In this document: piece after piece, positions 11,695 to 29,131 of the stretch
How positions within the stretch are numbered: position 1 is the stretch's first letter
Layout: the number at the start of each line of letters is the position of its first letter
NCBI GenBank assembly: GCA_007096045.1
Contig: SFAU01000095.1
Location: 1-36,420 of the forward strand
Source: Microcystis novacekii Mn_MB_F_20050700_S1
GTDB lineage: Bacteria > Cyanobacteriota > Cyanobacteriia > Cyanobacteriales > Microcystaceae
Direction: 5' to 3'
Length of the DNA stretch: 36,420 nt
Made by a program: the position numbers and the translations under genes
The notes under the pieces: model-generated
Told to the model about the DNA's origin: nothing
Seen by the model: the letters and a program-made list of their open reading frames with translations, nothing else
Database searches by the model: none

Positions 11695-11696
11695 CG

Positions 11697-14600
11697 TTAC
11701 AGTTGAGCTAATATTTGTTCTAGTTCTATTTGGTCGATTTCTAATAAGGGGAAATCTTGGGCGGTGTAATCTCGATTATCCGCTTCAGACGGCGGAGGAT
11801 TCACTATTTCTGGTTCTGTTTGTGACTGGGTGACTCTTGTTACTACTGTGGCTAATTCGGCGATATTTTGATGGGTAAATAATTGCTTGGGGGTTAACTC
11901 TAATCCTGCTTTTCTGGCTCTGGTAATGATTTGAATAGTTAGGATGGAATCGCCCCCCAGTTCAAAGAAGTTATCATAGATACCTACTAGCTCTACTCGC
12001 AAAACTTGTGACCAGATTTTAGCTAATATTTCTTCTTCTAGGTTACGAGGAGCGACAAAATTCAATTCTATCTCCCCACGCAAGTTGGGTTCAGGTAAAG
12101 CACGATGGTCTAATTTGCCATTGGGAGTTAAAGGTAGGGCATCTAAGGTAACAAAAGCACTAGGAATCATGTAATCTGGGAGCCTAGCTTTGAGAAATTG
12201 CCGCAGTTCACTTGTGCTTGGGGTGACATTTTTGGGCGGGACAATATAAGCAACTAGGCGTTTTATTCCTGGACTATCTTCACGAGCGGTGACACAAGTT
12301 GTTTCTACATAATTATGCTGACTCAGAACCGCTTCAATTTCTCCTAATTCAATGCGAAAACCTCGTATTTTAACTTGGTTATCAATGCGTCCTAAGTATT
12401 CAATATTGCCATCGGGTAAATAACGAGCTAAATCTCCTGTTTTATATAATCTGCTTTCTGTTGTTTGATGGAAGGGATGAGGGATAAATTTCTCGGATGT
12501 TAACTCTGGATGATTTAGATAACCCCGTGCTAAAGATGCACCGCCAATATAAAGTTCTCCTTGTACACCAATTGGTACTGGTTGAAGATTTTGGTCTAGG
12601 AGATAAATTTGTGTGTTCCCTAAGGGACGACCGAGAGGAACATTTTGTGTAGAGGAATCTCTCTGATGTTGAGATATTGATTGAGAGTCCACTGCAAAGG
12701 TCAGCACACCAACAGTAGCTTCTGTCGGACCGTAATGGTTGAATATTTTGCATTGTGGGGCATGAATTATTACTTTCTCTACTAAATTCCAAGTGGTAGT
12801 TTCACCACCTAAAATTAATTTTTGCCAGGGTAATCTTGTTTCCAGTTGAGCCGCAGATAATAAAGCCGCCAAGTGAGAAGGAACGATTTTCAGATAATCA
12901 AAGGGATGTTGTTGGCAATATTCTAAAAAGGCATTTGAATCAGTTGTTCTAGCCTCTGATAATAGGTGCAGACATCCACCATTAATTAAACTAGGAAAAA
13001 TCACTGTATTTCCTAAATCAGCCGCAAATGTGGAGACTAAAGCAAATTGTCCCCCCGGTTTCGACAAGCATTTTTCCTGAATGCCATTGAGATAGTTGAG
13101 TAATTGCCTGTGTTCTATGGCGACACCTTTAGCTTTACCAGTTGAACCAGAAGTAAAAATTGTGTAAATTAAGTTTTTGGCAGTTGTTGTATTTTCTGGA
13201 TTCTCTTCTTCAAATTCAGCTATTTTCTGCCAGTCAGAGTCTAAATAAACTACAGGTAGGTGAGTGAATCTCGCCGCTAGTGAGGATTGGGTTAATAGAA
13301 CCTGTGCCTGACTTTCTCCTAGCATAAAATCTAGACGTTCTTGGGGATAAGCTGGCTCTAAAGGTACATAACCTCCACCTGCTTTCAAAATACCTAGCAG
13401 TCCTACCATCATTTCTAGGGAACGCTCGACACAAATTCCCACCAACACATCTGGTCCCACCCCCAAATTTTGCAGGTAATGAGCTAACTGGTTCGCTCTG
13501 GCATTCAACTCCCGATAATTCAATTGCTGGTCTTCAAACACGACCGCCACATTATCAGGAGTTCGTTCCACCTGTTCCTCAAATAATTGATGAATACACT
13601 TATCTAATGGATAGTCAGTCTGACTATTGTTCCACTCAAAAAGTAACTGCTGTTGCTCAACTTCTGTGAGCATTGATAATTGGGAAATGGGCTGCTGTGG
13701 GTTAAGCACAATAGAGTTGAGCAGTCTGACAAAATGCTTGGCCATACGCTCAATAGTAACAGCTTCAAATAAATCAGTATTGTATTGCCAACACGGCTCA
13801 ATCTCCCCTTTTGCTTCCCTTACCATTAAACTCAAATCCAAGTGTCCGCCTCTTTGTCCTAACAAATATGGCTCCATTGGTAACACTGATTTTTGCCAAT
13901 GCAAGGAATTATTTTTTGCTTCACACCAAGTTTGTGCTTGCCAGGCAAAACTGACTTGACATAAAGGCGAACGGCTAGTATCTCGTTGTGGCTGGAGTTT
14001 ATCTGCTAACAGAGAAAATGGGTAATCTTGATGCTTTTGTGCTTGTCTAACTATTTTGCCAACTTGAGCCAGAAGTTCTGTAAATGTGGCATTCTCCTGA
14101 ACAGAAATTCTTAAAACGGTCAGGTTGGAAAAGTAGCCAACAATCTCTTTAAATTCTTTAGCCGTCCGACCTCTCATCGGACTACCTATAAGAATATCTG
14201 TTTGATTAGTGTAGCGGTAAAGTTGCACATAAAATGCTGTGAGCAGAATCTGATAAAGGCTGGTGTTCGAGGTTAAAGCTAGATGCCCGAGTTTTTCGGT
14301 TAACTGTTCATCTAGCTTGGCAATGTATGAGGCTCCTTGATAAGTCTTTACTGGAGGGCGAGGTTTGTCGGGAAGCAGATGCAAAATTGGCAATTCGCCA
14401 GCTAATTGTTGTTGCCAATATTGCCACAGTTTTTCTCCCCTAGAACCAGATAGCATTTCTGACTGCCATTGGACAAAATTTGCATAAGTTTTATTTTCAT
14501 TCCAAGAATCTGGGGCTGTTTCTGTCTGCTGTTGACTAACTTGCTCCACTTCCTCGGGATATAAAGATTGAAATTCCCTCAGCAGTAAATCATAAGACCA

Positions 14601-15041
14601 CATATCACTAGCAATGTGGTGCATTGTTAGCAAGAGAATATGTTCTTCATCTGAACGAGTAAATAAATTTACCCGCAAAACTGAATCTTTTTCTAAGTTA
14701 AAAGGGGTGTCAGCTATAGCATAGATTTTCTCTCTCAATTGTTCTTCGCTCCACTCCCTAGCATCTGTTACCTCAACAATAAAATCCTCTTGTTGGTTAA
14801 CCTGCTGCACTGGTTTGCCTTCATGATTGGTATATGTGGTTCTCAGAATCTGGTGCTTTTCAATAATTTTTTGCCATACACTATTGACAACAGCAATCTC
14901 TAAATAAGAATAAATTTTTGCAGTAATAAATATGTTATAAGCAATGTTTTCTGGAGCAATCTGGTAGATTAACCACATTGCTTCTTGACCACGGGAAAGC
15001 CCAGATGAATTTGGGGAAATTGTTTCGATATTTCTACTCAT
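11697..15041 (-). CDS. mcnA: Cyanopeptolin-type NRPS, starter module, aspartate-activating (C-A-PCP)
   Basis: First gene of the synthetase operon, 1114 residues. The N-terminal condensation domain (active site MHHIASDMWS) on the first module suggests a starter C domain that acylates the first amino acid; cyanopeptolins carry short fatty acids on Asp. The A domain has A3 FTSGSTGKAKG. Aligned with a two-residue insertion before the anchor Asp (TFAADLGNT), the code reads D-L-T-K-I-G-H-V-G, the canonical L-aspartate code. The carrier protein has LGGDS with the active serine at about 1032; the GGDS form is more often seen before epimerisation domains, but none follows. The last 20 residues (LLEIDQIELEQILAQL) look like an acidic helical docking segment for the next synthetase. 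A promoter lies about 150 bases upstream. The symbol rests on module order and codes. Confidence 0.88.
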   Translation of the reverse strand: MSRNIETISPNSSGLSRGQEAMWLIYQIAPENIAYNIFITAKIYSYLEIAVVNSVWQKIIEKHQILRTTYTNHEGKPVQQVNQQEDFIVEVTDAREWSEEQLREKIYAIADTPFNLEKDSVLRVNLFTRSDEEHILLLTMHHIASDMWSYDLLLREFQSLYPEEVEQVSQQQTETAPDSWNENKTYANFVQWQSEMLSGSRGEKLWQYWQQQLAGELPILHLLPDKPRPPVKTYQGASYIAKLDEQLTEKLGHLALTSNTSLYQILLTAFYVQLYRYTNQTDILIGSPMRGRTAKEFKEIVGYFSNLTVLRISVQENATFTELLAQVGKIVRQAQKHQDYPFSLLADKLQPQRDTSRSPLCQVSFAWQAQTWCEAKNNSLHWQKSVLPMEPYLLGQRGGHLDLSLMVREAKGEIEPCWQYNTDLFEAVTIERMAKHFVRLLNSIVLNPQQPISQLSMLTEVEQQQLLFEWNNSQTDYPLDKCIHQLFEEQVERTPDNVAVVFEDQQLNYRELNARANQLAHYLQNLGVGPDVLVGICVERSLEMMVGLLGILKAGGGYVPLEPAYPQERLDFMLGESQAQVLLTQSSLAARFTHLPVVYLDSDWQKIAEFEEENPENTTTAKNLIYTIFTSGSTGKAKGVAIEHRQLLNYLNGIQEKCLSKPGGQFALVSTFAADLGNTVIFPSLINGGCLHLLSEARTTDSNAFLEYCQQHPFDYLKIVPSHLAALLSAAQLETRLPWQKLILGGETTTWNLVEKVIIHAPQCKIFNHYGPTEATVGVLTFAVDSQSISQHQRDSSTQNVPLGRPLGNTQIYLLDQNLQPVPIGVQGELYIGGASLARGYLNHPELTSEKFIPHPFHQTTESRLYKTGDLARYLPDGNIEYLGRIDNQVKIRGFRIELGEIEAVLSQHNYVETTCVTAREDSPGIKRLVAYIVPPKNVTPSTSELRQFLKARLPDYMIPSAFVTLDALPLTPNGKLDHRALPEPNLRGEIELNFVAPRNLEEEILAKIWSQVLRVELVGIYDNFFELGGDSILTIQIITRARKAGLELTPKQLFTHQNIAELATVVTRVTQSQTEPEIVNPPPSEADNRDYTAQDFPLLEIDQIELEQILAQL

Positions 15042-15665: not shown

Positions 15666-17735
15666 ATGTCCGCCAAAGTCCCTCAAGATCGATCGACGAC
15701 TAATCTTATCTCCGATGTCAATAAATTTTGGCACAGTGTCAAGCTGATTGCTGCTCCCTATTGGTATCCTACTGAATCGGGGGGAAGGACTTTTGCCGAT
15801 GTGATGAAAGCTTGGGCAATGCTCATCCTACTAATCGGGGCAATCCTAGGAGTTGTAGGCTTAAATGCCTTCAATAGCTTTGTTAGTAATTACTTAGTTG
15901 ATGTCATTCTTGAAAAAAATGATTTTGATAAATTTGTCAGAACTTTGGTAGTTTTTGCGGTTGGACTGCTCTTTGTCACCATTTTAGTTGGCTTGCTTAA
16001 ATTTCTCAGAAAAAGAATCGCCCTAGATTGGTATGCTTGGCTCAATGACTGGATTCTCTCAAAATATTTGCATAATCGCGCCTATTACAGAATTAATTTT
16101 AAATCCGATATCGACAACCCAGATCAGCGTTTATCCCAAGAAATTGAGCCGATTACCAGTAAAGCTCTCTCCTTTTTTGCAGTTTCCCTAGAAAATGTCC
16201 TAGATATGATCACTTTTTTAGTGATTCTTTGGTCAATTTCTTCCTCTGTTGCCATTATTTTAGTCATTTGGACAATTCTCGGTAACGTCATTGCTATCTA
16301 TTTTAACCAAGCCTTAAATAAAATTACTCAAGAAGAATTAGAACTTAAGGCTAACTACAATTATGCTCTAACTCATATTCGTAATCATGCGGAGTCGATC
16401 GCTTTCTTTGAGGGAGAAAATCAGGAATTAAATATTATTCAGCGGAGATTTAATAAACTCTTAAGCAGTGCTAAACGTAAAATTGATTGGGAGAGAGGCA
16501 CAGAAATTTTTCGTCGAGGCTATCAGGCGGCAATTCAAGTATTTACTTTTGTCATTTTGGGTCCTTTGTATATCAATAGTGAGGGCATTAGTTTCGGACA
16601 GGTTGGGCAAGCCTGTTTAGCGGCTAATTTGTTTGCTACGGCACTGGCGGAATTAATTAGTGAATTTGGCACTTCGGCACAATTTAGCAGTTATGTTGAA
16701 CGTCTATCGCAATTTTCCCAAGCCTTAGAAGAAGTCATTAAACACCCGGAAAATTTAAGCACGATTAAAACCATCGAAGAAACCCAATTTTCCTTTGAAG
16801 ATGTCACCTTGCAAACCCCCGATTATGAACAGGTAATTGTCGAAAACCTCTCCCTTTCTGTTCAGCCTGGACAAGGTTTATTAATTGTCGGTCCGAGTGG
16901 TCGGGGTAAAAGTTCTTTGCTACGCGCAATTGCCGGTTTATGGAATGCCGGAACCGGCCGATTAGTGCGTCCCCCCCTAGAAGAAGTATTATTTCTGCCC
17001 CAACGTCCCTATATAATATTAGGAACCTTGCGAGAACAGTTACTTTATCCCAATCGCAATCAAGAAACCAATGAGATAAAACTAAGGGAAGTTTTGCAAG
17101 AAGTCAATCTCCAAAATTTACTAAATCGAGTCAATAGCTTTGATACAGAAGAGCCTTGGGAAAACATTTTGTCCCTAGGAGAACAACAACGTTTAGCTTT
17201 TGCTAGGGTATTAATTACCCGTCCCAGTTTTACTATCCTGGATGAAGCCACAAGTGCTTTGGACTTAAACAATGAGGAAAATTTATATCGGCAATTGCAG
17301 AAAACTCACACAACTTTTATTAGTGTCGGACACCGGGAAAGTCTCTTTAAATATCATCAATGGGTTTTAGAACTCTCTAGTAATTCCCATTGGCAACTGC
17401 TGACAGTGGAGGAATATCGCCGACAAAAAGCCAAAGAAATTATTAATATTTCTGTCGATAATTCTCAAGCTAGGCTCGAAGATTTACCGAATCAGGAAAC
17501 CGAGGTCAATCCTAAAATCAATCCTGCCGGGGAACCACCCCCCGAATCGCCAACGACAACAATCTTAACAGAACCCCTAGAAGGACTTTCCCATGCACAA
17601 ATGAAGGAATTAAGCGACTATTCTCTCAGTAGCATTAGAAGCAAAGCCAGTCAGGGAAAATCAATTACGGGGAAAGATGGACTGACCTATCGCTATGACA
17701 AAGACCCTAAAATCTTAAAATGGCTAAGAGTTTAG
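15666..17735 (+). CDS. SbmA/BacA-like ABC transporter, fused permease and ATPase
   Basis: A 689-residue half-transporter with a membrane domain followed by an ATP-binding domain, of the SbmA/BacA (ABC_membrane_2) type, a group known to move peptides or cobalamin-like compounds across the inner membrane. Hydrophobic segments lie in the first 310 residues (for example AMLILLIGAILGVVGLNAF). The family-like motif NPDQRLSQEIEPIT follows the second membrane segment. The Walker A motif is GPSGRGKS (409-416). The signature is LSLGEQQR near 502 instead of LSGGQ, and Walker B is TILDEATS near 524. The last 60 residues form an extra tail ending DYSLSSIRSKASQGKSITG and YDKDPKILKWLR, shared with the paralogue at 23741-25804. 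It is divergent from mcnA and followed 61 bases later by a HEXXH protein, probably in one operon. Substrate and direction cannot be read from sequence. Confidence 0.85.
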   Translation: MSAKVPQDRSTTNLISDVNKFWHSVKLIAAPYWYPTESGGRTFADVMKAWAMLILLIGAILGVVGLNAFNSFVSNYLVDVILEKNDFDKFVRTLVVFAVGLLFVTILVGLLKFLRKRIALDWYAWLNDWILSKYLHNRAYYRINFKSDIDNPDQRLSQEIEPITSKALSFFAVSLENVLDMITFLVILWSISSSVAIILVIWTILGNVIAIYFNQALNKITQEELELKANYNYALTHIRNHAESIAFFEGENQELNIIQRRFNKLLSSAKRKIDWERGTEIFRRGYQAAIQVFTFVILGPLYINSEGISFGQVGQACLAANLFATALAELISEFGTSAQFSSYVERLSQFSQALEEVIKHPENLSTIKTIEETQFSFEDVTLQTPDYEQVIVENLSLSVQPGQGLLIVGPSGRGKSSLLRAIAGLWNAGTGRLVRPPLEEVLFLPQRPYIILGTLREQLLYPNRNQETNEIKLREVLQEVNLQNLLNRVNSFDTEEPWENILSLGEQQRLAFARVLITRPSFTILDEATSALDLNNEENLYRQLQKTHTTFISVGHRESLFKYHQWVLELSSNSHWQLLTVEEYRRQKAKEIINISVDNSQARLEDLPNQETEVNPKINPAGEPPPESPTTTILTEPLEGLSHAQMKELSDYSLSSIRSKASQGKSITGKDGLTYRYDKDPKILKWLRV

Positions 17736-17796
17736 CCGATGAGAGACGGGTCAAAAAACAACTTTAAACCATTACACCAACTTAGCTACCCAAAAA

Positions 17797-18966
17797 ATGA
17801 ATCAAACTCTGGTCAATCAACAACAGTTCTTCCAAGAAATCGTCCAAGATATTGAGGAAAATAAAATTGCAATTGCGGCGAAAAAACTGCGTCAACAGGA
17901 AGCAGATAGCTGTGAAATTCCGGCTCAGTGGCTCTGGAAAACAGCAGAGGCTTTAGAAACCAACGACTGGAGCATTTTATCAGAAGATTTCATTAATTTG
18001 AATTTTATCGGTAAAAATGGTTATTTTCTGATGATTGCTCCCTATCGCATCAATCGTCAAGGAGAAAGACAACTCACGTTGAGTGCGATTTACGGAAAAA
18101 TTCACCAAAATAGTCAACCTTCTATTGAACAACTAGAAAGCTTAACTCGTGAAAAATTTGGCAGTCTAAGACAACCGATTCCCAGAAATTTGTCCTTTAC
18201 TGAAATTGCTAGTTGTGGCACGGTTAAAGGTGAAAAGGGGGAAGCTTTTATCGTTCCCCATAGGTGGACTTTTCCCAATAGTGTTCAGGGGCCAGCTTTA
18301 AATAATGCCAGTGAGCAAAAAAGACGCTTTTCTGGTTCTAGCTACGAATGTATCCGAAAAATTTTTGAGCCAGAAACGGCCGATTTACTATTAGAACCCC
18401 TAGAGGATCAAATTAATGGTGAACGCTATCGTCATCTCGATACCCAATTCCATGAAGCGGGTCATGCTACTGGGTTAGGATTTGACTTGAAACTCAAAAA
18501 TAAACTGTTTCAAAACTATACCTATGCCGGAGTCGAGGAGTGGCGCTCAGATAGTTTAGGCTTTGAATTTGCCGATTGTGCTTTACCAGCCGAAGAAGCG
18601 GGAAAATTAGTCGCTGTTAATTTCTGTATTCGCTTTGGTTTAGATGCTCACCGTTTAGGGGGTTTAGAAAAAGATGTGGATGTTCACGCTAGTTTGATTA
18701 GTTTGGAATATCTCTTGCAAAATGATGCTATTTATCTCACCAAAAATGGTCAATTGGCCTTGCGGAATATCAGTTATCCAGGCTTACTAAAAGCGGTGGA
18801 AATGCACCGAACACAAGCTTTGTCTCTAACGCGAAGGGAGTTGAATCTAAATAGTCCAACGGGTCTTTTTGCTCTGTATAAAGTGGAGATTCATCCCGCA
18901 ACCCAATTAATTTTTCAGGGACTAATTGTAGAGCGATGCCGCGGAATTTGGTCAGAGTTACAATAA
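17797..18966 (+). CDS. Putative zinc metallopeptidase with HEAGH motif, family unknown
   Basis: A soluble protein of 389 residues with no signal peptide or membrane segment. The sequence FHEAGHATG gives a HEXXH zinc site (His219, Glu220, His223). About 25 residues later VEEWRSD (Glu247/Glu248) provides a candidate third ligand, the gluzincin arrangement. The pairing of HExxH...G with EE-x-R-[S/A]-[D/E] recalls dipeptidyl peptidase III (M49: HELLGH and EECRAE), but the spacing and the rest of the chain differ, so this is only a resemblance. A 61-base gap from the SbmA-like transporter and the same orientation suggest co-expression, perhaps to cut or mature a transported peptide. I do not recognise the N-terminal 200 residues. 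Loss of function would be suggested if the metal ligands were not conserved in homologues. Confidence 0.65.
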   Translation: MNQTLVNQQQFFQEIVQDIEENKIAIAAKKLRQQEADSCEIPAQWLWKTAEALETNDWSILSEDFINLNFIGKNGYFLMIAPYRINRQGERQLTLSAIYGKIHQNSQPSIEQLESLTREKFGSLRQPIPRNLSFTEIASCGTVKGEKGEAFIVPHRWTFPNSVQGPALNNASEQKRRFSGSSYECIRKIFEPETADLLLEPLEDQINGERYRHLDTQFHEAGHATGLGFDLKLKNKLFQNYTYAGVEEWRSDSLGFEFADCALPAEEAGKLVAVNFCIRFGLDAHRLGGLEKDVDVHASLISLEYLLQNDAIYLTKNGQLALRNISYPGLLKAVEMHRTQALSLTRRELNLNSPTGLFALYKVEIHPATQLIFQGLIVERCRGIWSELQ

Positions 18967-19113
18967 GTACCTAGGGTTTGCTGATAACCGGCCCGGGGAG
19001 GGATGTCAATCAGCCATCTGCATCCCACCAAAGCCTATTGATGGCCATGGGGATTGGGGTCAACTCCTCTGAGTTTCTGGCCACAGCAAGTGCCGGCCTG
19101 GGAATATTAGTCG
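18967..19113. other. Intergenic spacer, no gene seen
   Basis: GC-richer than its surroundings (ccggcccggggaggg; gtgccggcctggg). A weak GGATG/CATCC inverted repeat lies just downstream of the peptidase stop, with no T-run. No open frame or RNA gene was recognised. Confidence 0.4.
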
Positions 19114-19165
19114 TTGACTTCTACACATTTATTTATATATATATCGCTAGATAACTAAAATGTGT
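19114..19165 (+). promoter_or_regulatory. Promoter with overlapping inverted repeat, upstream of LamG-DUF2235 gene
   Basis: The -35 box TTGACT (19114-19119) is followed after 17-18 bases by an AT-only -10 (ATATAT/TATATA, 19137-19143). An inverted repeat with 8-bp arms ACACATTT (19123-19130) and AAATGTGT (19158-19165) covers the spacer and the start region, where a repressor could block transcription. The leader to the ATG at 19277 would be about 125 bases. Confidence 0.5.
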
Positions 19166-19276
19166 TAAACTAGGGGGTAGCATTCTGGGAAATCACGACA
19201 GATAGATCAGTCTCTTATTAGTCAGAATCCCTGAACCCCTGATTACCTCTTTCTCCCCTGGGCGATTACAAAACCA

Positions 19277-21289
19277 ATGGCTGAACAACGCTCTGTACTA
19301 AAATTTAATGGCATTGATGATCATATTGATCTATCCCACGGATTTCTTGACATCGATCAGAGTATTACCATTACATTTTGGGCAAAAGGGGAAAATAATT
19401 TAGCTACAGAAACGACTCTTTTAGAAGCTGTTAATCGGGAAAATAACCGGGTTCTACATATTACCCTGCCTTGGGGCGCTCCCGTGAAACCTGCGATTTT
19501 TTGGGATGCGGGAAATGAAGAAGGTTTCGATCGAATTGAGAAAAAAGTCAAGCTTAAAGATTATAGTGATTGGACTCATTGGGCCTTTGTCAAAAATGCG
19601 ACCACAGGCCGAATGTTGATCTATCGTAATGGTATCATTTGGCATCGTGGCAACGGTCATAACCGGGCCTTAACTGGGATTGAAAAAATCATCTTGGGAG
19701 CCTCTGTTAATCTCTCCCATTATTGGCAAGGTTGTCTTGCAGAACTTTCTCTTTGGAATCAAGCGCGTAGCCAAGAAGAAATCCAGAAAACTATGTATCA
19801 ATCTCCTGGGTTTGATGACCTTGGCTTAGTCACTTATTTATCACTCAATGGCAGTGCCGAGGATCAAACAAGTTATAGCAATCATGGTATTCTTCATGGG
19901 ACAACCTGGCAACTAGATAGTCTTCCCTCTAAACCGACCTCGATCCCTAAATCAAAAATTCAGACTAGCAGTAAAGCTAGAAGGAATGCGAAAAGGATAA
20001 CAATGGTCAACGAAATTTTTAACTCTTTTGAAAAAGAAGAAGTGGTTGAACAAGATGCTCCAGCCGAACATCAAGAACCTGCCCCGGAAGAGAATCCAGA
20101 ATCAACTATAATCACCGAAGAAGCTACTCTTGCCAGCAATGAAATTGAGGAGATTACTAAAACGGCAATTTCTGCACCAGATATCCTGACTTATTCAAAC
20201 CAGAAAAAACGGTTAATTATTTGTTGTGATGGTTCTTGGGAAGACTCTGCCAGTGCTTACCCCACCAATGTGGTTAAATTCGCCGAATCTATTAAGTATA
20301 TTGCCGAGGATCAAACCCCCCAAATCGTCTTTTTGTCAGGTTCTGGCAGCGCCGAAGATAACGAATTTATTAAAAGTTTAGGGAATGAAACTTTTGGCTG
20401 GGGACTCGATCGAATGATCCAAGATGCCTATCGTTTTCTTGTCCTTAACTATAATCCCACAAGCGAGGATGAAGTTTATTTGTTAGGTTTTAGTCGCGGA
20501 GCATATATCGTTCGTTGTTTGGCTAGTTTTATCGATAAATGTGGAATCCTAAAACGCTCTAAGATTAAAGAAATTCCCCTAGCTTATCAACTATATCGAG
20601 ACCACAGCGTTAGTTCCGATAGTGCCAAAGCTCAACAATTTCGTGCCGCTAATGCCAAAAAAATTGAGACAGAAAAGGAAGATTTTCAAGATCGTATTCC
20701 AGTCAAGATGTTAGGTTGTTGGGATACAGTTGGTCATTTTGGTATTCCTGATTTAACCCCTTGGTTTCCCCTAGCTAAGTTTTATCATAAAAAATATGAA
20801 TTTAGTAACACAACATTAAGTCCGATTATCCAGAATGCTTTTCATGCTGTTGCCATTGATGAAAAACGTAAAAACTTCCCTTCCACTCCGATCAAAGCCA
20901 ATCCCGAAAATCCCGAACAAGTTGTCAAAGAAGTTTTATTTGTCGGTGAACATACCTGTCTAGGTGGTGGCAAAAAAGAATATCAAGGACTTTCCGACTA
21001 CCCGTTACAATGGATGATTAATCAAGCCAAAAAATTGGGATTAGAGTTTGACTCAACCACCTCTGAATTTGAGGAATTCCCAATTAAACTAGACCCGACC
21101 ATTAAGTTCGATAATACTGTTAAAGGATTGTCGGCCTTGGGAGGTGAGCAATGGCGATATTTCAATACAAAAGTTGTCACTGTTCATCACAGTGTGGTAA
21201 AACGATTAAAGGCTTTTTCCGATTATCGTCCCAAAAGTCTTGAACCTTTTCTTCAAGCTTTACTTGACGGCGATCAACAGACAGATTAA
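19277..21289 (+). CDS. LamG domain-DUF2235 (Tle1-like phospholipase fold) fusion protein
   Basis: The 670-residue protein has two domains. Residues about 1-215 form a concanavalin/LamG-type beta sandwich (VLKFNGIDDHIDL, ITITFWAKGENN, WTHWAFVKN, CLAELSLWNQARSQEEI). After an acidic, Glu/Pro-rich linker (about 225-310), residues 312-660 form a DUF2235 alpha/beta-hydrolase. This opens with LIICCDGSWED and has the nucleophile elbow GFSRGAY with Ser406. DUF2235 contains the Tle1 lipase effectors of type VI secretion and related cytosolic hydrolases. WDTVGHFG and VGEHTCLGGG (the latter a likely Asp/His-region loop) match the family pattern. There is no signal peptide. The gene leads a likely three-gene operon with a membrane protein 51 bases downstream. 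A fused carbohydrate-binding-like sandwich suggests a recognition-plus-hydrolysis role; the substrate is unknown. Confidence 0.8.
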   Translation: MAEQRSVLKFNGIDDHIDLSHGFLDIDQSITITFWAKGENNLATETTLLEAVNRENNRVLHITLPWGAPVKPAIFWDAGNEEGFDRIEKKVKLKDYSDWTHWAFVKNATTGRMLIYRNGIIWHRGNGHNRALTGIEKIILGASVNLSHYWQGCLAELSLWNQARSQEEIQKTMYQSPGFDDLGLVTYLSLNGSAEDQTSYSNHGILHGTTWQLDSLPSKPTSIPKSKIQTSSKARRNAKRITMVNEIFNSFEKEEVVEQDAPAEHQEPAPEENPESTIITEEATLASNEIEEITKTAISAPDILTYSNQKKRLIICCDGSWEDSASAYPTNVVKFAESIKYIAEDQTPQIVFLSGSGSAEDNEFIKSLGNETFGWGLDRMIQDAYRFLVLNYNPTSEDEVYLLGFSRGAYIVRCLASFIDKCGILKRSKIKEIPLAYQLYRDHSVSSDSAKAQQFRAANAKKIETEKEDFQDRIPVKMLGCWDTVGHFGIPDLTPWFPLAKFYHKKYEFSNTTLSPIIQNAFHAVAIDEKRKNFPSTPIKANPENPEQVVKEVLFVGEHTCLGGGKKEYQGLSDYPLQWMINQAKKLGLEFDSTTSEFEEFPIKLDPTIKFDNTVKGLSALGGEQWRYFNTKVVTVHHSVVKRLKAFSDYRPKSLEPFLQALLDGDQQTD

Positions 21290-21340
21290 CCTTGCTTTAA
21301 AATTAAATTAATCCTTCGCTAGAAATTTGAGGTGATTTTT

Positions 21341-21826
21341 ATGGAACTCGATAACATTATCAAAAAAGTGGCAGGTACTTATTTAGCTTCGGCTATTATT
21401 GCTGTCATCGTGCTAATTGTGACCCTCGGACAACCCTTTGTAGTTTTTCTGGGTATCGGAGCGATGGGGTTGGTTAGTGTCTTAGGAGATGCGATCGCTC
21501 AGTACGGAATTGAAGCGGTTCTGAATGCTTTTTACACTGAGCGAAGTAAAAAAGAATCCCTAGAAACACTTTTGGCTGAAATTGATGCTTTACCTCTGAC
21601 TGATGACCTGAAATTAAAAACTAAAAAATACTTGACTGACTATCAAGAACAGACAGCAAAGCAGCAAGAAACGGTAACTGAGCCAACTCCTGAAAGTCCT
21701 CAAACAGTTGTTATTGAAAAGGAACCAGTTATTGAAAAGGAACCAGTTGTGGAAAAGGAACCAGTTGTGGAAAAGGAACCAGTTATTGAAAATGAACCAG
21801 TTGTTGTTGAAGTTGAAAATGTTTAA
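21341..21826 (+). CDS. Small membrane protein with acidic six-residue repeat tail
   Basis: The start is placed at the ATG at 21341, which has a GAGG ribosome site 8 bases upstream; a GTG at 21332 overlaps that site. The 161-residue protein has two hydrophobic segments near residues 12-60 (YLASAIIAVIVLIVTL and FVVFLGIGAMGLVSVLG). A charged helix follows (TERSKKESLETLLAEID), then a Gln/Glu-rich stretch and a tail made of five copies of V(I/V)EKEP-type hexapeptides. It is not a family I recognise. The tail looks extended and charged, like a stalk or spacer. Its place 51 bases after the LamG-DUF2235 hydrolase suggests it anchors that enzyme or protects the cell against it. Confidence 0.75.
   Translation: MELDNIIKKVAGTYLASAIIAVIVLIVTLGQPFVVFLGIGAMGLVSVLGDAIAQYGIEAVLNAFYTERSKKESLETLLAEIDALPLTDDLKLKTKKYLTDYQEQTAKQQETVTEPTPESPQTVVIEKEPVIEKEPVVEKEPVVEKEPVIENEPVVVEVENV
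21710..21799 (+). repeat. Five tandem 18-bp units in coding sequence
   Basis: Units begin at 21710, 21728, 21746, 21764 and 21782, with consensus gttattgaaaaggaacca. They differ only at att/gtg and in the last unit (aat for aag). The near-identity at DNA level points to recent slippage expansion, so unit number is likely to vary between strains. Confidence 0.9.
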
Positions 21827-21834
21827 TTAGGTAT

Positions 21835-21861
21835 TGCTCCCTCTTGCAATAACTGGGAGCA
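21835..21861 (+). promoter_or_regulatory. Hairpin between membrane-protein gene and GUN4 gene
   Basis: TGCTCCC (21835-21841) and GGGAGCA (21855-21861) form a 7-bp stem with a 13-base loop just after the membrane-protein stop. There is no T-run, so it is more likely an mRNA processing or attenuation element than a terminator. Confidence 0.35.
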
Positions 21862-21910
21862 GCGAATGATTATTGCTAAGTACTGAGGAATTTTTTGGTC
21901 TAAGATAGCT

Positions 21911-23599
21911 ATGCTAAATAGGAACTCTCCACATCTGATGACCTATAAAAAAATTGCCATTTATGAGCAAAGCTATCAACTTCCTGTTTTTAAAAATAGA
22001 TACTTAAAAAATTTTCATAAAATCATCAAAGAACGTCGGAAATTAATTCAAGAAGGAGTTCGCTACCATTACTATTTTGGTAAGATTATTAAACGAAAAG
22101 AAAAAATTACTCAACAAGAAATCTTGATTGAGACTCAGTTATTAATCAAAGACTATAATTTATTAATTAACGGACTAGAAATCTATCAAGACGGATATTA
22201 TCGTTTTTTACTACAACTCAGTGACAATCTTAAAATTTTATTTTCCCAAAAATATCAAGAATTAAAAATCTTAGACTACGAGAGAATAAAGTTAGAAATT
22301 AAAAATAATAATAATCAAAATATTCTCAATCAACTCAAGCTGGAAAAACAGGAAAATTTTCGGGCAATTTTGCTACTGGGAAAAACATCTTTTTTGATGT
22401 TGAGAAAAACTAAATTACTAGGGGAAGGAGTTCAGAAATTAGCCGAGGATACTCAAAAGCAGAAAAAAATTGTGCAAGCAATTATTCAAGAACTCAAAAT
22501 TTATGAGGAATTAAATCATTACCAACTCAAATCTCAACGAGTTCGCCAAGAAATTGCGGATCTTGCCCAAAATGCGATTAATTTTGAAAACTACCTACAG
22601 GACTATTTTGCTCCTTTTCAATTATTAATAGAAGAAGTCATTAAGGTGGATGAAGAATTTTATGCAACAGTGGGAGAAATTAAGTATTTGGTAGATAATA
22701 TTTTTCCACCTCAGCCTGATCTCTTAGAAACGTCAGATTCCGCCATAAATTCTGAGTTTTTGCTAAATTTTCTAGCGACTGGTTACGAGAAAGACGCAAG
22801 GTTAAAAGAGGCTTTTTCCTCTGATCAATTTAATGACTACTTATTCAATGAAAGTGAATGGTCAGAACAATTTATTTCCCTAGAAAAAACCATCAATAAA
22901 TTATCTGATCATTTAGCAGAACAAGAGACTTGTCAAAAAGACACTATCCCCAAAACTCCCCTAGCAATAGTTGTCTCTCAATTCACTCAAAACAATCTTG
23001 ACAAATCTTCTAGTTCTAAAAATCCCCAGACTTCCCCAAATATCTTAACTCAAGAATCGGCTGATCTTGATTATAATCAATTACAAGATTTGCTAAGAAA
23101 GCAACAGTGGCAAGCAGCCGATCGCCAAACAACCAAACTACTATTAAAAATTTTGGGTAGGACTTACTGGAATGAGGTTTATCCTCAAGATATTGCTCAA
23201 TTACCTTGTTCAGAACTGAAAAAAATTGATCAACTTTGGCTGCATTATAGTAATGGTCATTTCGGGTTTAGTATTCAGCAAGCTATTTTCTCTAGTCTCG
23301 GTGGTTTAGTGGATTATGAAACCCAAAAGAAACTTGGTGATCGCCTAGGTTGGCGGAAGGAAGGTAAATGGCTCAATTATGAGCAACTAAACTTTCAATT
23401 AGAGCCGAATTCTCCCCTCGGTCATTTACCCGTTCATTGGTTGATTTTTGAAGAAAATCTTTGTTACCCATCTGCCGAGGTTGCTGACAATCAAAACTCC
23501 CTAGCTTTTTGGAGAGTTGGCGATTGGTTATTGTGGCAACTTCACCTGGTTTTAAGCAAAATTCAAGCCTGTGGAATTATTCCTCTGTCTGACTTTTAA
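21911..23599 (+). CDS. Coiled-coil protein with C-terminal GUN4 domain
   Basis: Of the 562 residues, about 1-340 are highly charged and helical with coiled-coil character (KNRYLKNFHKIIKERRKL, EDTQKQKKIVQAIIQELK). A short Ser/Pro-rich linker follows. Residues about 385-525 match the GUN4 fold (LDYNQLQDLLRKQQWQAAD, LPCSELKKIDQLWLHYSNGH, FGFSIQQ, then WRKEGKW and LPVHW). GUN4 itself binds porphyrins and assists Mg-chelatase, but many cyanobacterial GUN4 domains are fused to kinases, caspase-like or coiled-coil modules and probably act as sensors; that is the likely role here. It is third in the likely operon with the LamG-DUF2235 hydrolase and the membrane protein, with an 84-base gap. The start ATG has only a weak ribosome site. 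Confidence 0.75.
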   Translation: MLNRNSPHLMTYKKIAIYEQSYQLPVFKNRYLKNFHKIIKERRKLIQEGVRYHYYFGKIIKRKEKITQQEILIETQLLIKDYNLLINGLEIYQDGYYRFLLQLSDNLKILFSQKYQELKILDYERIKLEIKNNNNQNILNQLKLEKQENFRAILLLGKTSFLMLRKTKLLGEGVQKLAEDTQKQKKIVQAIIQELKIYEELNHYQLKSQRVRQEIADLAQNAINFENYLQDYFAPFQLLIEEVIKVDEEFYATVGEIKYLVDNIFPPQPDLLETSDSAINSEFLLNFLATGYEKDARLKEAFSSDQFNDYLFNESEWSEQFISLEKTINKLSDHLAEQETCQKDTIPKTPLAIVVSQFTQNNLDKSSSSKNPQTSPNILTQESADLDYNQLQDLLRKQQWQAADRQTTKLLLKILGRTYWNEVYPQDIAQLPCSELKKIDQLWLHYSNGHFGFSIQQAIFSSLGGLVDYETQKKLGDRLGWRKEGKWLNYEQLNFQLEPNSPLGHLPVHWLIFEENLCYPSAEVADNQNSLAFWRVGDWLLWQLHLVLSKIQACGIIPLSDF

Positions 23600-23622
23600 A
23601 ACCATCATTTATCAGCTTGTAG

Positions 23623-23684
23623 GGTGCGTTAGGCGGTAATAATCTTTGACAAAAACCAAAATTAACAATCCGCCGTAACGCACC
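23623..23684. repeat. Inverted repeat with GGTGCGTTA arms between convergent genes
   Basis: GGTGCGTTAGGCGG (23623-23636) and CCGCCGTAACGCACC (23670-23684) are inverted copies differing by one unpaired base, separated by 33 bases. This type of GTGCGTTA..TAACGCAC repeat is common in cyanobacterial intergenic DNA. It lies where the GUN4 gene and the second transporter converge and could serve as a two-way transcription stop. Confidence 0.75.
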
Positions 23685-23740
23685 ACTTTAACATTTCTGA
23701 AACCCTTGAATTGCAGCCAAAATAAATTAGCGAGAAAATT

Positions 23741-25804
23741 CTAGATTCTCACCCATTTTAAGGCTTTTGGGTCTTTATCGTAACGATAATTAACCCCATC
23801 TTTAGCAGTAATGATTTTACCTAAACTGGCACGACTCCGGACGTTACTTAAAGAATAATCAGTTAGGGACTGCATTTGTTGATGGGACAAACCTTCAGTT
23901 ATTTCAGAAACTCCTGCAATTTCCGCATCATGCTCAGTTTTAACCTCAGACAAAGTCTCTATTTTTACCGCTGAGAAATTTTCTGATTTTTTTGACATCA
24001 TGGCCATATTATTAACTTTTTGACGCTGATAATCTTCTACAGTTGACAGCTGCCAATGGGAATTTTCTGTTAACTCTAAGACCCATTGATGATAATTAAA
24101 TAAACTTTCCCGATGACCAACACTAATAAAAGTAGTTTCGCTTTCCTGTAATTGCCGATATAAACTGGCTTCATTTACTAAATCTAAAGCACTGGTTGCT
24201 TCATCTAAGATAGTAAAAGTCGGTTTAGTGATTAATAGTCGAGCAAAAGCTAATCTCTGCTGTTCTCCCAGAGATAAAATCTGTTCCCAATTGACTTCTT
24301 TATCTAAGCTATTTTGGTCAGTTAATAAATGTTGAAGATTGACTTTTTTTAAGATATTTTCTAATTCTTCATCGCTCAGCTGCTCCTTGGTATGGGGATA
24401 AAGTAATTGCTGGCGTAAAGTGCCAAGAATAATATAAGGACGTTGGGGTAAAAATAACATTTTAGCTAAAGGAGGACGCACTAAACGACCACTACCCGCT
24501 TTCCATAAACCGGCGATTGCTCGTAACAAGGAACTTTTTCCTCGACCACTGGGGCCGATAATGAGTAGGCTGTCTCCCAAAGGAACAGAAACCGATAAAT
24601 TCTCCACAATTACCTTTTCATAATCGGGAGTTTGTAGGGTGAAATTTTCAAAAGCTATACGCTCATCTTCCAGGGTGGTAATACGACTTAAGTTTTTCGG
24701 CTCTTCACTGGCAACTTTTAAGGCATCTGTCAAGGTAGCTAACCGTTCAATATAACTTGAAACTTTACCCGATGTTCCCCATTCGGTAATTAATTGTCCC
24801 AAGGCATTAGAAAAAAGGAAACAGCATAAACTCGCTTGACTAATTTCCCCATAATCGATTTCGTTTTTAATAAACATCGGGGTCAAAATAAACATTGAAA
24901 ATACACTAATCGCTGACTGATAACCTCGATTAAAAAGATTATTAAACCGTTCCCAATTTATCAGTTTTTCCGAGCTTTGAATAAGCCGTTCAAAACGGCC
25001 TTCAATGATTTTTTCTTCCTGCTCTTCTCCCTGAAAAAAAGCAATGGATTCGGCGTGGTTACGCACATGGGTTAAAGCATAATTATAATCCGCCTTATCA
25101 TTAAGTTCAGATTGATTAATTTTATTTAATTCTTGAGTTAGATAAATTGCTATTAAATTTCCTGTGATCGTATAAATTATCAAATAGACTGCAATTTGTG
25201 GGGAAATTGTCCAAAGAATAATCGCAAAAGTAATCATTTGTAACCCTTTTTCCACGAAGGTAATTAAAAACCTCAGGGTCATGGTCGTAATTGGTTCAAT
25301 TTCTTGAGATAATCTTTGATCGGGATTTTTTAAGTTCGAGGTAAAATCAATGTTATAATAAGCGCGATCATTGAGATATTTTTTAACGGTTTGTTTCGTT
25401 AACCACTTATACCAATCCAATGCTACTTGGCGACGAATAAATTGAGAAAAAGCAAATAAACCTGTTGTTACTATAATCAAAAAACTGGATAACCACAGTG
25501 TATTTAGATATTTAGAAAGGTCTCTATCTTCAATAATAATGTCGAGTACATAACGATTCCAGTAGCTGCTAAAAGCTTCTACCCCCACCGTTGCCAAGAT
25601 ACTTAAAAGAATCAAAGCTGACATTCCCCAAGAAATGATCACATCTCCAAAGGCACGTCCATTTAACTCCGTTGGATACCAATAGGGTTGAGCCACAATT
25701 TTTAGGCTTTCCCAAAATTGACCAAATAGTGAAAAGGGATTATTGGAGGATTGAGCGGACACAACAGGGTTTTCCGTCGCTTTTTTAGTAGTATATTGGG
25801 CCAT
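23741..25804 (-). CDS. SbmA/BacA-like ABC transporter, second paralogue
   Basis: This 687-residue fused permease/ATPase is closely similar along its whole length to the protein at 15666-17735. It shares PYWYPTE near the start, NPDQRLSQEIEPIT, TGNLIAIYLTQELNKI, ALTHVRNHAESIAFF, Walker A GPSGRGKSS, the signature LSLGEQQR and Walker B TILDEATSALD. The variable linker differs (about 590-635), but the C-terminal tail is again conserved (LSHQQMQSLTDYSLSNVRS, then YRYDKDPKALKWVRI). The gene is convergent with the GUN4 operon, and no partner gene is attached to it. Paralogues at both ends of the block could be two exporters or importers with different peptide substrates, or form a heterodimer. Function is inferred from family only. 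Confidence 0.85.
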   Translation of the reverse strand: MAQYTTKKATENPVVSAQSSNNPFSLFGQFWESLKIVAQPYWYPTELNGRAFGDVIISWGMSALILLSILATVGVEAFSSYWNRYVLDIIIEDRDLSKYLNTLWLSSFLIIVTTGLFAFSQFIRRQVALDWYKWLTKQTVKKYLNDRAYYNIDFTSNLKNPDQRLSQEIEPITTMTLRFLITFVEKGLQMITFAIILWTISPQIAVYLIIYTITGNLIAIYLTQELNKINQSELNDKADYNYALTHVRNHAESIAFFQGEEQEEKIIEGRFERLIQSSEKLINWERFNNLFNRGYQSAISVFSMFILTPMFIKNEIDYGEISQASLCCFLFSNALGQLITEWGTSGKVSSYIERLATLTDALKVASEEPKNLSRITTLEDERIAFENFTLQTPDYEKVIVENLSVSVPLGDSLLIIGPSGRGKSSLLRAIAGLWKAGSGRLVRPPLAKMLFLPQRPYIILGTLRQQLLYPHTKEQLSDEELENILKKVNLQHLLTDQNSLDKEVNWEQILSLGEQQRLAFARLLITKPTFTILDEATSALDLVNEASLYRQLQESETTFISVGHRESLFNYHQWVLELTENSHWQLSTVEDYQRQKVNNMAMMSKKSENFSAVKIETLSEVKTEHDAEIAGVSEITEGLSHQQMQSLTDYSLSNVRSRASLGKIITAKDGVNYRYDKDPKALKWVRI

Positions 25805-26011
25805 CTAGATGCAATTGGCAGTTCTTTTACTGTTCTCTTGACAACTCGCTATCATATTGTAGCGGAAGAATTACCTGTTGTTGTCTTTTGTTGACATTTT
25901 TATCTCGAAGTTGAAGTTTTAGGGGTGCAGTAGGCTGCCCGCTCATTTAAATTGCTTGTGGAGATGAGGCACTCTTGCAACAGTAAAGGGATTGGGGGAG
26001 ATTCAGCTAAT
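25805..26011. other. Intergenic region upstream of second transporter
   Basis: A TACAAT -10 box on the minus strand lies about 50 bases before the transporter ATG, but no good -35 accompanies it. No gene or long repeat was recognised. Confidence 0.35.
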
Positions 26012-26399: not shown

Positions 26400-27827
26400 T
26401 TAGGATTCAGTCATCCATTCCGTATGGAAAAACTCACCTCTGGGTTTATCGGTACGTTCGTAGGTATGAGCGCCAAAATAATCCCGTTGTGCTTGGGTGA
26501 GATTTTGCGGTAAATTGGCCCGACGATAACTATCAAAATAGTCCAAAGAAGAACTAAAAGCTGGGACAGGAATTCCCAACTTATTAGCCAAGACTAACAC
26601 CTCACGCCATGCCTCTTGGCGATCGAGGATACTTTGCTTAAATTCCGGCGCTAACAACAAATTTGGCAGCCCCGGATTTTCCGCAAAAGCTTTGCGAATT
26701 TTATCCAAGAAACCGGCCCGAATAATACAGCCGCCCTTCCAAATCCGGGCCGATTCCGGCAGACTGATATTATAGTTAAACTCCTGAGAAGCTTTCGCAA
26801 TTAAAGCCATACCCTGGGCATAGGAACACATTTTCGAGCAGTAAAGAGCATCACGCACCTTATCCACAAATAGTGCCGCATCCCCCGGATAGGTTTCCCC
26901 GGGTCCGGGTAACTCTTTTGCGGCTGCCACCCGTTCATCCTTATAAGCGGACATCACGCGAGCATTAACCGCAGCATAAATGGTCGGAATTGGCACCCCC
27001 AACTCCAAGGAACTTAACACAGTCCAGCGTCCTGTTCCCTTTTGTCCCGCCGAATCCAAGATTAAATCTATCAGATGATGACCGGTTTCTGGGTCAACAC
27101 ACTTAAAGATATCGGCGGTAATTTCAATTAAATAAGAATTAAGCTCATCGGTGCGATTCCACTCGGCGAAAGTTTCCTGTAACTGCTGATTGCTTAGTCC
27201 TAGACCATTTTTCAGCACATCGTAGGCTTCCGCAATTAACTGCATATCGCCGTACTCGATGCCATTGTGAACCATTTTCACATAATGGCCCGCACCACCA
27301 GACCCCACATAGGTGACACAGGGACCATCATCGACTTGGGCGGCAATTTTGGTTAAAATCGGCTCTAATTCCCGATAGGCGAACTCTGTACCCCCCGGCA
27401 TCAGGGAAGGACCGTGCAGAGCGCCTTCTTCGCCACCACTGACTCCCATGCCGACAAAACCCAGTTTAGTGGTCGATTCTAGGTCGCGGGTGCGTCTTTC
27501 CGTGTCCTCGTAGAGGGAGTTACCGCCATCGATAATCATATCTCCTTCTTCGAGAAGGGGTTTTAATTGTTCGATCACGGCATCCACCGGCGGGCCAGCT
27601 TTTACCATGACCAGAATTTTGCGGGGACGCTCTAAATTTTGGACGAATTCTTCTAAACTATAGGCCGCCTTGACATCTTTGCCTACGGCGCGAGTTTCCA
27701 TAAATTCTTTAGTTTTGCTGGCGGTGCGATTGTAAACAGCGATAGGAAAACCCCGACTCTCCACATTGAGAGCGAGATTTTCTCCCATGACAGCTAGTCC
27801 AATAACACCGAAGGTACGTTTAGTCAT
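26400..27827 (-). CDS. gnd: 6-phosphogluconate dehydrogenase, decarboxylating
   Basis: The enzyme converts 6-phosphogluconate to ribulose 5-phosphate with NADPH production in the oxidative pentose phosphate pathway, in the cytosol. The 475-residue length is normal. The N-terminal nucleotide-binding motif is GVIGLAVMGENLALN (near residue 8), followed by NRT at the NADP phosphate site. The substrate loop GVSGGEEGALHGPSLMPGG lies near 130. The catalytic segment GAGHYVKMVHNGIEYGDMQ holds the catalytic Lys and Glu near 185-192. The C-terminal half carries the expected helical dimer region with QRDYFGAHTYER near the end. The gene stands alone with its own terminator downstream. It is a core gene next to accessory DNA, so it marks a boundary of the variable block. 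Confidence 0.97.
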   Translation of the reverse strand: MTKRTFGVIGLAVMGENLALNVESRGFPIAVYNRTASKTKEFMETRAVGKDVKAAYSLEEFVQNLERPRKILVMVKAGPPVDAVIEQLKPLLEEGDMIIDGGNSLYEDTERRTRDLESTTKLGFVGMGVSGGEEGALHGPSLMPGGTEFAYRELEPILTKIAAQVDDGPCVTYVGSGGAGHYVKMVHNGIEYGDMQLIAEAYDVLKNGLGLSNQQLQETFAEWNRTDELNSYLIEITADIFKCVDPETGHHLIDLILDSAGQKGTGRWTVLSSLELGVPIPTIYAAVNARVMSAYKDERVAAAKELPGPGETYPGDAALFVDKVRDALYCSKMCSYAQGMALIAKASQEFNYNISLPESARIWKGGCIIRAGFLDKIRKAFAENPGLPNLLLAPEFKQSILDRQEAWREVLVLANKLGIPVPAFSSSLDYFDSYRRANLPQNLTQAQRDYFGAHTYERTDKPRGEFFHTEWMTES

Positions 27828-27922
27828 AGAAATTCAGTCTCGGCTGATGCGTTCTTCTTCCCCTTTTAGCACCTACTTTCCCTAAGATAGCTAAACTTTC
27901 CCTATTTCTTAAGCCTTGACTC

Positions 27923-27955
27923 ATCAGTAATCAGTAATCAGTAATCAGTGATCAG
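27923..27955. repeat. Tandem heptamer repeat (STRR type)
   Basis: Four adjacent copies of atcagta (last one atcagtg) plus a partial fifth. Short tandem heptamers of this kind are frequent in cyanobacterial intergenic DNA. It lies between the divergent gnd and metallo-beta-lactamase genes. Confidence 0.85.
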
Positions 27956-28070
27956 ATTTGGGTTTTCAGTGAGAAGCATTAAGTGAGGAGTGTTACAGCG
28001 TTTCTCCTCAAGATGCAGAAAAATTAATGCTAATGTTAAATTAAATTAAGAAAATCCTCATTCTTCTTAT

Positions 28071-28853: not shown

Positions 28854-28863
28854 TCTGAGTTAA

Positions 28864-28898
28864 GGGAAGAATAGAAAAAAAACTGACTATTTCTTCCC
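28864..28898 (+). terminator. Hairpin after the metallo-beta-lactamase-fold gene
   Basis: GGGAAGAATAG and CTATTTCTTCCC pair with one bulged base over a 12-base A-rich loop, 10 bases past the stop. Only a weak T-stretch follows, so termination activity is uncertain. Confidence 0.4.
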
Positions 28899-29012
28899 GA
28901 TCTTTATCTAAAACAGTAGAATTTTTTAATTGTTTGAAAAGACTGGCTCTCTTAAATATTGGATGTAAAATGGGGAGATGCCAATTGTACTATAAATAAA
29001 AATACTTATGGC

Positions 29013-29120
29013 TTATTGAATAACTGGGGTGATAGCTTGTAAAACTTCCACTTTACAAAGTCCGAAATCTTTGAGATTTTTAGTACAGAAAATTATATAA
29101 TTAAAAGTGGCTCTTCTCTG
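29013..29120 (-). pseudogene. C-terminal remnant of a PIN-domain (VapC-like) toxin
   Basis: A 35-codon open frame without a start reads FNYIIFCTKNLKDFGLCKVE followed by VLQAITPVIQ and a stop. The pattern of a hydrophobic strand, then T-(K/R)-N-x-K-D-F and a final strand V-x-V-L is typical of the C-terminus of PIN-domain nucleases of type II toxin-antitoxin pairs. The rest of the toxin and any antitoxin are gone. The remnant stops abruptly at the methyltransferase start, which suggests the methyltransferase segment replaced the toxin's 5' part. Confidence 0.5.
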
Positions 29121-29131
29121 CTAAATTGTCT

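Follow-up and report, generated by a model that had tools for sequence, protein, structure and literature searches.

We know of no account that resolves how and when cyanobacteria release their abundant protease-inhibitor peptides. The described systems closest to the locus treated here are the microviridin (mdn/mvd) and cyanopeptolin (mcn/oci) gene clusters. When the ATP-binding cassette (ABC) transporter MdnE is missing, microviridins are wrongly processed and incompletely cyclized, and MdnE may anchor the enzymes at the membrane, a scaffold role proposed in a review whose section on this transporter adds that export by MdnE has not been demonstrated (PMC7823629). The ABC transporters of nonribosomal peptide synthetase (NRPS) clusters evolve together with their clusters, and seven modules is the number previously described for cyanopeptolin, the Planktothrix strain of the same study having eight (PMC2739229); mcnF and mcnG are named as genes in a transcriptome study (PMC5311399). 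Parts of the gene set considered here are already in print, without a function in the sections that describe them: a GUN4-superfamily protein, function unassigned, in the mvd clusters of Fischerella PCC 9339 and Nodularia CCY9414 (PMC4558948), and a patatin-ABC pair in the puwainaphycin cluster (PMC4219810). Here we analyze a 36,420-nucleotide stretch of Microcystis novacekii DNA (the window, which is the whole of contig C291 of genome G000), where NRPS genes are followed by an ABC transporter gene (T1), a DUF6014 gene, a gene for a LamG-hydrolase (LIP), one for a small putative membrane protein (MEM), a GUN4-domain gene (GUN), and a second ABC transporter gene (T2). We conclude that this stretch is very probably the transport and accessory end of a cyanobacterial protease-inhibitor peptide cluster.

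A set made up of the LamG-hydrolase, MEM, and GUN recurs next to both NRPS and microviridin clusters, and does so in several families. We compared the window with 30 related genomes, 11 of them other species of the same genus, and with a wider sample of 388 genomes of the order (Cyanobacteriales). Maps were also made of 40 further stretches and of 63 named loci (L141-L203) from Microcystis, Planktothrix, Nostoc, Scytonema, Brasilonema, Calothrix, Dolichospermum, Westiellopsis, and others; these loci partly overlap the sampled genomes, so the named-locus counts and the 388-genome census are not independent. Map labels were reference proteins picked from these loci, by which other recurring genes could be missed, and the 10-kb counts over the 63 loci include short contigs. 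The six genes are where the initial annotation had placed them, each an open reading frame (ORF) over its full extent, with intergenic gaps from T1 to T2 of 61, 310, 42, 84, and 141 bp. The features of the window that bear on the argument are as follows.

293-15041, minus strand: NRPS genes, four modules and a partial one toward the contig end (ORFs; Pfam for the two single-module proteins; motif counts for all three proteins).
15666-17735, plus strand: T1, an NRPS-linked ABC transporter (ABC_membrane_2 and ABC_tran), probably McnF-type (Pfam, neighborhood, tree).
17559-17732, plus strand: conserved C-terminal tail of T1, possibly helix-turn-helix (HTH)-like (alignment; 115 places in 52 of 388 genomes, all places counted, short fragments included).
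17797-18966, plus strand: DUF6014 putative metallopeptidase (Pfam; HEAGH at 18451-18465, invariant E247/E248).
19129-19276, plus strand: leader block conserved 5' of the lipase gene, much alike whether DUF6014 or the other transporter type precedes it.
19277-21289, plus strand: LIP, an N-terminal LamG domain (19310-19786) and a Tle1-like phospholipase domain (20207-21025) (Pfam; GFSRG at amino acids 404-408).
21332-21826, plus strand: MEM, with a hydrophobic N-terminal stretch (amino acids 9-56) and a charged C-terminal tail (ORF, profile search, hydropathy).
21911-23599, plus strand: GUN, an N-terminal domain (21911-22930), a GUN4 domain (23057-23434), and a conserved C-terminal extension (Pfam, profile search, alignment).
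23589-23702, no strand: rearrangement junction, a 77% match to L207:6818-6913, which lies between mdnD (GNAT) and MEM.
23741-25804, minus strand: T2, a displaced microviridin ABC transporter (MdnE), its tail at 23744-23908 (orthologs of about 95% identity beside MvdC/MvdD; MdnE clade).
25805-25919, minus strand: upstream DNA that accompanied T2 out of the microviridin locus (matches of 92-97% to L069, L070, and L207, over 111-115 bp).

A single strong copy of GUN is present in each of 44 of the 388 genomes, beside several other GUN4 proteins (44 places with E<=3.9e-80, at most five candidates scored per genome, 10 genomes with weaker matches only being left out). T1 and T2 share a C-terminal domain of about 50 residues behind a variable linker, and this tail is found together with GUN in 43 genomes, while GUN alone occurs in 1 (a genome that is 73% complete), the tail alone in 9, and neither in 335. 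MEM, counted as 76 places with E<=2.8e-15 in 53 genomes (148 genomes match at E<=0.001, of which 95 were left out), accompanies GUN in all 44 and occurs without it in 9; MEM and the tail are together in 50 genomes, with MEM only in 3 and the tail only in 2. GUN, MEM, and the tail occur together far more often than chance would give, by Fisher values and counts that ignore relatedness. The recurring neighborhood that had been proposed for these genes is seen across families as adjacency with strand and order kept, and homologs scattered without adjacency were not what we found: GUN lies within 10 kb of a tailed transporter in 34 of 44 cases, where about 0.37 would be expected by chance for an assumed 5.5 Mb per genome. 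Tailed transporters average about two per genome against one strong GUN, the ratio that a shared partner would be expected to show.

Within 10 kb of GUN, the 63 named loci have a T-type transporter in 54, MEM in 42, a phospholipase in 37, MvdC/D in 28, and NRPS genes in 23. Of the non-Microcystis loci, 47 extend 8 kb or more upstream of GUN; among these, a T running in the direction of GUN stands within 10 kb in 41 and within 400 bp in 32, and either a T or a biosynthetic core is near GUN in 44. Phospholipase or LamG, MEM, T, and GUN are co-directional in 22 of the 28 named microviridin loci, and the common orders are MvdC-MvdD-LamG/patatin-MEM-T-(GNAT)-GUN-small protein or NRPS-T-GUN-small protein. 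In Nostocaceae the set adjoins MvdC/MvdD or NRPS genes, and LamG is fused to patatin instead of the Tle1-like lipase. MEM is directly 3' of the LamG/phospholipase gene in 37 of 39 cases in the mapped loci, and in several NRPS loci MEM lies about 25-35 kb away, at the far end of the NRPS genes. Counts of the LamG-hydrolase itself cover the 30 relatives and the mapped loci. The GUN domains that are 96-98% identical to that of the window come, by their named records, all from Microcystis.

Of the 12 Microcystis genomes, 11 have lipase-MEM-GUN, always in the same order. T1 and DUF6014 precede it in G000, G001, G003, G004, G005, and G008, and in G010 T1 and DUF6014 end one contig and the cassette starts another. 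No DUF6014 was found in G002, G009, G011, or the contig-edge G006, where a transporter 62-64% identical to T1 directly precedes the lipase; in the first three of these the cassette is beside a different NRPS cluster. A 310-bp gap (18967-19276) divides T1-peptidase from lipase-MEM-GUN in the window. About 150 bp directly 5' of the lipase is alike in both contexts and the DNA further 5' differs; the leader block is kept in seven of the eight Microcystis intergenic regions compared (four per context), L053 being without much of it. Because the leader is alike and the preceding DNA differs, lipase-MEM-GUN looks like a separate unit to which different clusters are joined. The complete genome G007 (100% complete, 2 contigs) has no tail, MEM, or DUF6014 match at E<=0.001, and has only a partial 35% GUN paralog and a 43% lipase paralog; its gnd region (L243) runs on into other genes. 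The cassette adjoins gnd in 5 of the 12 genomes and does not in G003, G004, G005, and G008; adjacency cannot be told for G006 and G010, and G007 lacks the cassette.

T1 and the DUF6014 gene belong with the adjacent NRPS cluster, so that the locus, which had been taken to be separate from the synthetase operon, is instead the accessory end of it. The window holds only part of that cluster, about four modules, and does not by itself fix the product type. NRPS1 is 95% identical to its relative in the complete genome G008, where it is part of a seven-module set; the divergently oriented NRPS genes of G008 encode proteins of 1102, 1105, 4724, and 1418 amino acids with 1, 1, 4, and 1 adenylation motifs. 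The Pfam matches and motif counts place an N-methyltransferase in the fourth module of the 4724-amino acid protein, which is the sixth of seven modules, and the last protein has a thioesterase-like element by motif only. We take the sixth module to be the position of N-methylation in cyanopeptolin as well. In the window, NRPS1 ends at 2691 amino acids near the contig end (window 1-400), against one 4724-amino acid frame in G008, and this break is either an assembly error or decay.

By Pfam, T1 and T2 both combine ABC_membrane_2 (PF06472) with a fused ABC ATPase (ABC_tran), at 139.7 and 117.5 bits for the former domain against a cut-off of 24.4, and T1 has its Walker A motif at amino acids 409-416 and its signature at 502-509. 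Their closest PDB relatives are ABCD proteins and entry 6tqe. They had been called SbmA-like, a membership that we reject: neither matches PF05992 (SbmA_BacA) at E<=0.01, and one Nostocaceae relative of the transporters reaches 20.8 bits with that family, below its cut-off of 24. T1 of G001 looks broken (G001:C1:2963060-2965125), with its tail in a different reading frame from the rest, and a tail-bearing ORF of 128 amino acids lies at G001:C1:558304. When the tail was searched against the PDB, two repeat proteins led (E 0.003 and 0.04), followed by sigma-E region 4 (E 0.06).

T2 is an MdnE transporter parted from its microviridin genes in this genome. Its orthologs of about 95% identity (L069, L207) adjoin two ATP-grasp genes whose products score above the equivalog cut-offs for MvdC and MvdD, and T2 is inside a 36-row MdnE clade with a support of 100/100, where MvdC/D is within 6 kb in 26 of the 30 named rows outside Microcystaceae. 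Seven transporters outside this clade also carry that MvdC/D label, as a second T often precedes MvdC. Another contig of the same genome, C18, has MvdC and MvdD together with a precursor whose leader and core are microviridin-like, then MEM, and then NRPS at the contig end; for the mdnD-type GNAT, no close match was found in G000, only one of 35%. Judging from these arrangements on two separate contigs, C18 and C291, the NRPS cluster and the cassette most likely sit inside a split microviridin cluster. T2-type genes are at another place or contig in eight other Microcystis genomes.

The remaining proteins of the set were examined by domain, motif, and profile searches. The Tle1-like domain of LIP scores 251.7 bits in Pfam, behind Laminin_G_3, and the domain behind LamG is Tle1-like (T6SS_Tle1-like_cat) in Microcystis, Planktothrix L148, and G154 and patatin in Nostocaceae and others. 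The nucleophile Ser406 is invariant in 14 of 14 aligned Tle1-type sequences, LIP included, and the nucleophile serine is kept in 41 of 41 aligned patatin-type sequences. No PDB relative of LIP was found by sequence at E<=0.001. A simple hydropathy scan gave no membrane segment in LIP or GUN and the hydrophobic N-terminal stretch in MEM, which matched no Pfam family. A second LamG-MEM pair in G002 has LamG fused to a sulfatase domain, and such second pairs are seen at the other end of an NRPS cluster (L206:4302-7560 and L209:8652-11903), with the sulfatase fusion in L206, the one of the two covered by the domain scan.

The GUN4 domain of GUN is related to PDB entries 1z3x (E 5.6e-17) and 1y6i (E 4.7e-12), and the N-terminal domain, helical in look as judged by eye, has no significant PDB relative by sequence (best E 0.062; glycolipid-transfer proteins at 0.14-0.28). 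Fused GUN4 domains have been proposed to sense photosynthetic state through tetrapyrrole (PMC7159879), and GUN4-like domains occur in the variable proteins of cyanobacterial diversity-generating retroelements (PMC7517822). A 33-34% paralog of the N-terminal domain is fused to an FGE-sulfatase domain in Microcystis (L071:7430-9208 and L072:8834-10840), and in L072 a bAvd gene, an accessory of diversity-generating retroelements, overlaps the end of this fusion. A small conserved protein of about 136 amino acids (e.g., L118:8226-8636, and many Nostoc loci) is encoded no more than 10 kb from GUN in 45 of the 63 named loci; it matches no Pfam family at E<=0.01 and was not seen in the seven named Microcystis loci.

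The DUF6014 protein is a putative zinc metallopeptidase, as predicted from HExxH with a downstream acidic ligand: H219, E220, H223, E247, and E248 do not vary among the 21 aligned sequences, all of which are at least 66% identical, the homologs of 42-51% identity being outside that alignment. By sequence it has no significant PDB relative, with one match at E 2.2. In the 388-genome census, 15 of 27 DUF6014 homologs are within 2.5 kb of a tailed transporter and 18 of 27 within 10 kb, these being 27 of 28 places, with a weak one in G232 left out. No RNA families were found in the window, and its 28 promoter-like sites are no excess over the 30.6 in shuffles, so no promoter is claimed. The DNA at 26400-36000, with gnd, a beta-lactamase-fold gene, an N6/N4 DNA methylase, and their neighbors, is a recurring chromosomal stretch.

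How the set might act can be pictured from published ideas on MdnE and GUN4 (PMC7823629, PMC7159879) together with the gene anatomy, and we tentatively propose a membrane-bound complex for biosynthesis and export, with GUN as a regulator and a lipid hydrolase that aids release, a mechanism that we regard as possible rather than probable. The T transporters would hold the peptide-making enzymes at the cytosolic face of the membrane and export the product. Through the tail that they share, they would dock a partner used by every such cluster in the cell, and MEM would tie the LamG-hydrolase to this membrane as well. Control would fall to GUN, with the GUN4 domain sensing tetrapyrrole, and with it photosynthetic state, and the N-terminal domain relaying the signal. 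The hydrolase would act on membrane lipid and so permit or regulate peptide release, and where a cluster carries the DUF6014 peptidase, this enzyme would trim the peptide or turn it over. Taken whole, the cluster-accessory identity and this mechanism are in our judgment the best explanation, with somewhat better than even chances of being right. In a bolder form that we think quite unlikely, there would be one control unit per cell, in which a tetrapyrrole-sensing GUN4 protein, via the tail and the MEM anchor, switches the LamG-phospholipase for graspetide and NRPS clusters alike, and on a failure of photosynthesis or damage to the cell, peptide stores would be discharged where the membrane is opened locally; the lipase folds would be exchangeable there because only the cleavage of membrane lipid would matter.

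Several observations weigh against this explanation. Tailed transporters occur in nine genomes that lack GUN, and in one genome GUN is present but the tail is not. Ten of the 44 GUN genes have no tailed transporter within 10 kb, and six of these have no tail on the contig; in G016 the tail is 32 kb from GUN, and in G142, G204, and G249, of the genus Planktothrix, the distance is 0.4-3.3 Mb. Neither T nor core is near GUN in 3 of the 47 loci (L160 and L162, both Planktothrix, and L170), 20 of the 76 strong MEM places are more than 40 kb from any tail or GUN or on another contig, and 9 of the 27 DUF6014 places have no tail within 10 kb. Seven named-locus transporters end before the tail (L166, L169, L171, L172, L173, L191, and L194), those of L195 and L203 having a tail that the pattern missed; the HTH-like shape of the tail is only suggested by a weak likeness; and the census and locus counts ignore shared ancestry. 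Under Daphnia grazing, the cyanopeptolin, microviridin, and aeruginosin transcripts of Microcystis are little affected (PMC5311399), and there is therefore no support for a grazing trigger, release being outside the scope of that study.

The LamG-hydrolase, DUF6014, and perhaps GUN could instead serve in tailoring or maturation, with the peptide itself and not membranes as their target, by deacylation or leader removal. The presence of these genes in clusters, the varying type of hydrolase, the HEAGH motif kept in all 21 DUF6014 sequences, and the closeness of 15 of 27 to tailed transporters are consistent with such a role, and the protease that removes the microviridin leader is left unsettled in the review's treatment of it (PMC7823629). 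However, the same LamG/MEM/GUN set serves chemically unrelated products, both microviridin and NRPS types, the paired MEM would have no obvious tailoring role, and DUF6014 is within 10 kb of GUN in 0 of 56 non-Microcystis named loci, so we hold this alternative to be unlikely. Defense had also been suggested, and a defense or abortive-infection unit could consist of a GUN sensor, a phospholipase effector, and the membrane protein, and travel with peptide clusters, both being in variable regions. GUN4 and FGS domains are listed among cyanobacterial conflict-system domains (PMC7159879), the paralog of the GUN N-terminal domain is fused to an FGE-sulfatase next to the bAvd gene in L072, and the LamG-patatin scores 172 bits against the phospholipase model of cyclic-oligonucleotide-based antiphage signaling systems (CBASS), below its cut-off of 200. 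We consider this improbable all the same, since the set stays joined to T and cores in a conserved strand and order, the FGE paralog loci L071 and L072 show no T-type transporter, and the loci of weaker N-terminal paralogs (L131-L138) have at most 25-31% ABC matches. A known antiphage defense system was rejected by homology: among the six window proteins there is no PADLOC system, the matches being ABC-ATPase cross-matches and one PD-T4-6 match that covers the GUN4 domain alone.

The initial annotation had read the two paralogous transporters and the genes between them as one unit for peptide import or export and signaling. The two do flank the genes of the window and are 56% identical (blastp), but they are not a pair, T1 going with the NRPS genes and T2 with microviridin, and their bracketing is peculiar to this genome and no general feature, as G001, G002, G009, and G011 have GUN followed directly by gnd without T2. 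The paired unit is rejected because T2, inside the MdnE clade, is a displaced MdnE that carries microviridin upstream DNA, and we give it only the slightest chance. A chance neighborhood without a functional link would fit the differing flanking content of Microcystis genomes and the distance of Planktothrix GUN genes from tailed transporters, but recurrence across families with strand and order kept, relatedness being ignored, makes this highly improbable too.

With the cluster-accessory explanation, a set that combines a sensor domain with exchangeable hydrolases and is common to clusters of differing chemistry provides concrete deletion targets, and MdnE-type transporters gain a shared tail as a candidate docking site. 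Among the papers listed for our searches of the open-access literature, subscription papers being mostly outside that scope, we found no published account of the whole set of LamG-hydrolase, MEM, GUN, and T.

Compared with known systems, GUN shares the GUN4 domain of the Mg-chelatase cofactor GUN4 and differs by its fusion to the N-terminal domain. LIP shares the Tle1-like catalytic domain and serine nucleophile motif of the type VI secretion effector Tle1 and differs by the LamG fusion, and no type VI secretion genes were among the eight window proteins scanned by Pfam, with no search aimed at neighbors. The patatin version likewise shares its catalytic domain and nucleophile motif with CapV-type/CBASS phospholipases and differs by the LamG fusion. 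The puwainaphycin cluster of Cylindrospermum, compared by description only, has a patatin-like orf2 of unassigned role beside the ABC transporter orf1, and the published description of the cluster that we used has no GUN4, MEM, or LamG (PMC4219810). The cyanopeptolin mcn/oci clusters are like the G008 set in having seven modules, an N-methyltransferase in the sixth, and an ABC transporter, and LamG-lipase, MEM, GUN, and DUF6014 were not found as described parts of them in the passages of the literature searched. The microviridin mdn/mvd clusters are like the window in T2, which is about 95% identical to Microcystis transporters beside MvdC/MvdD and in the same clade, and unlike it in that T2 is cut off here from the ligases and the accessory set is common to NRPS clusters as well.

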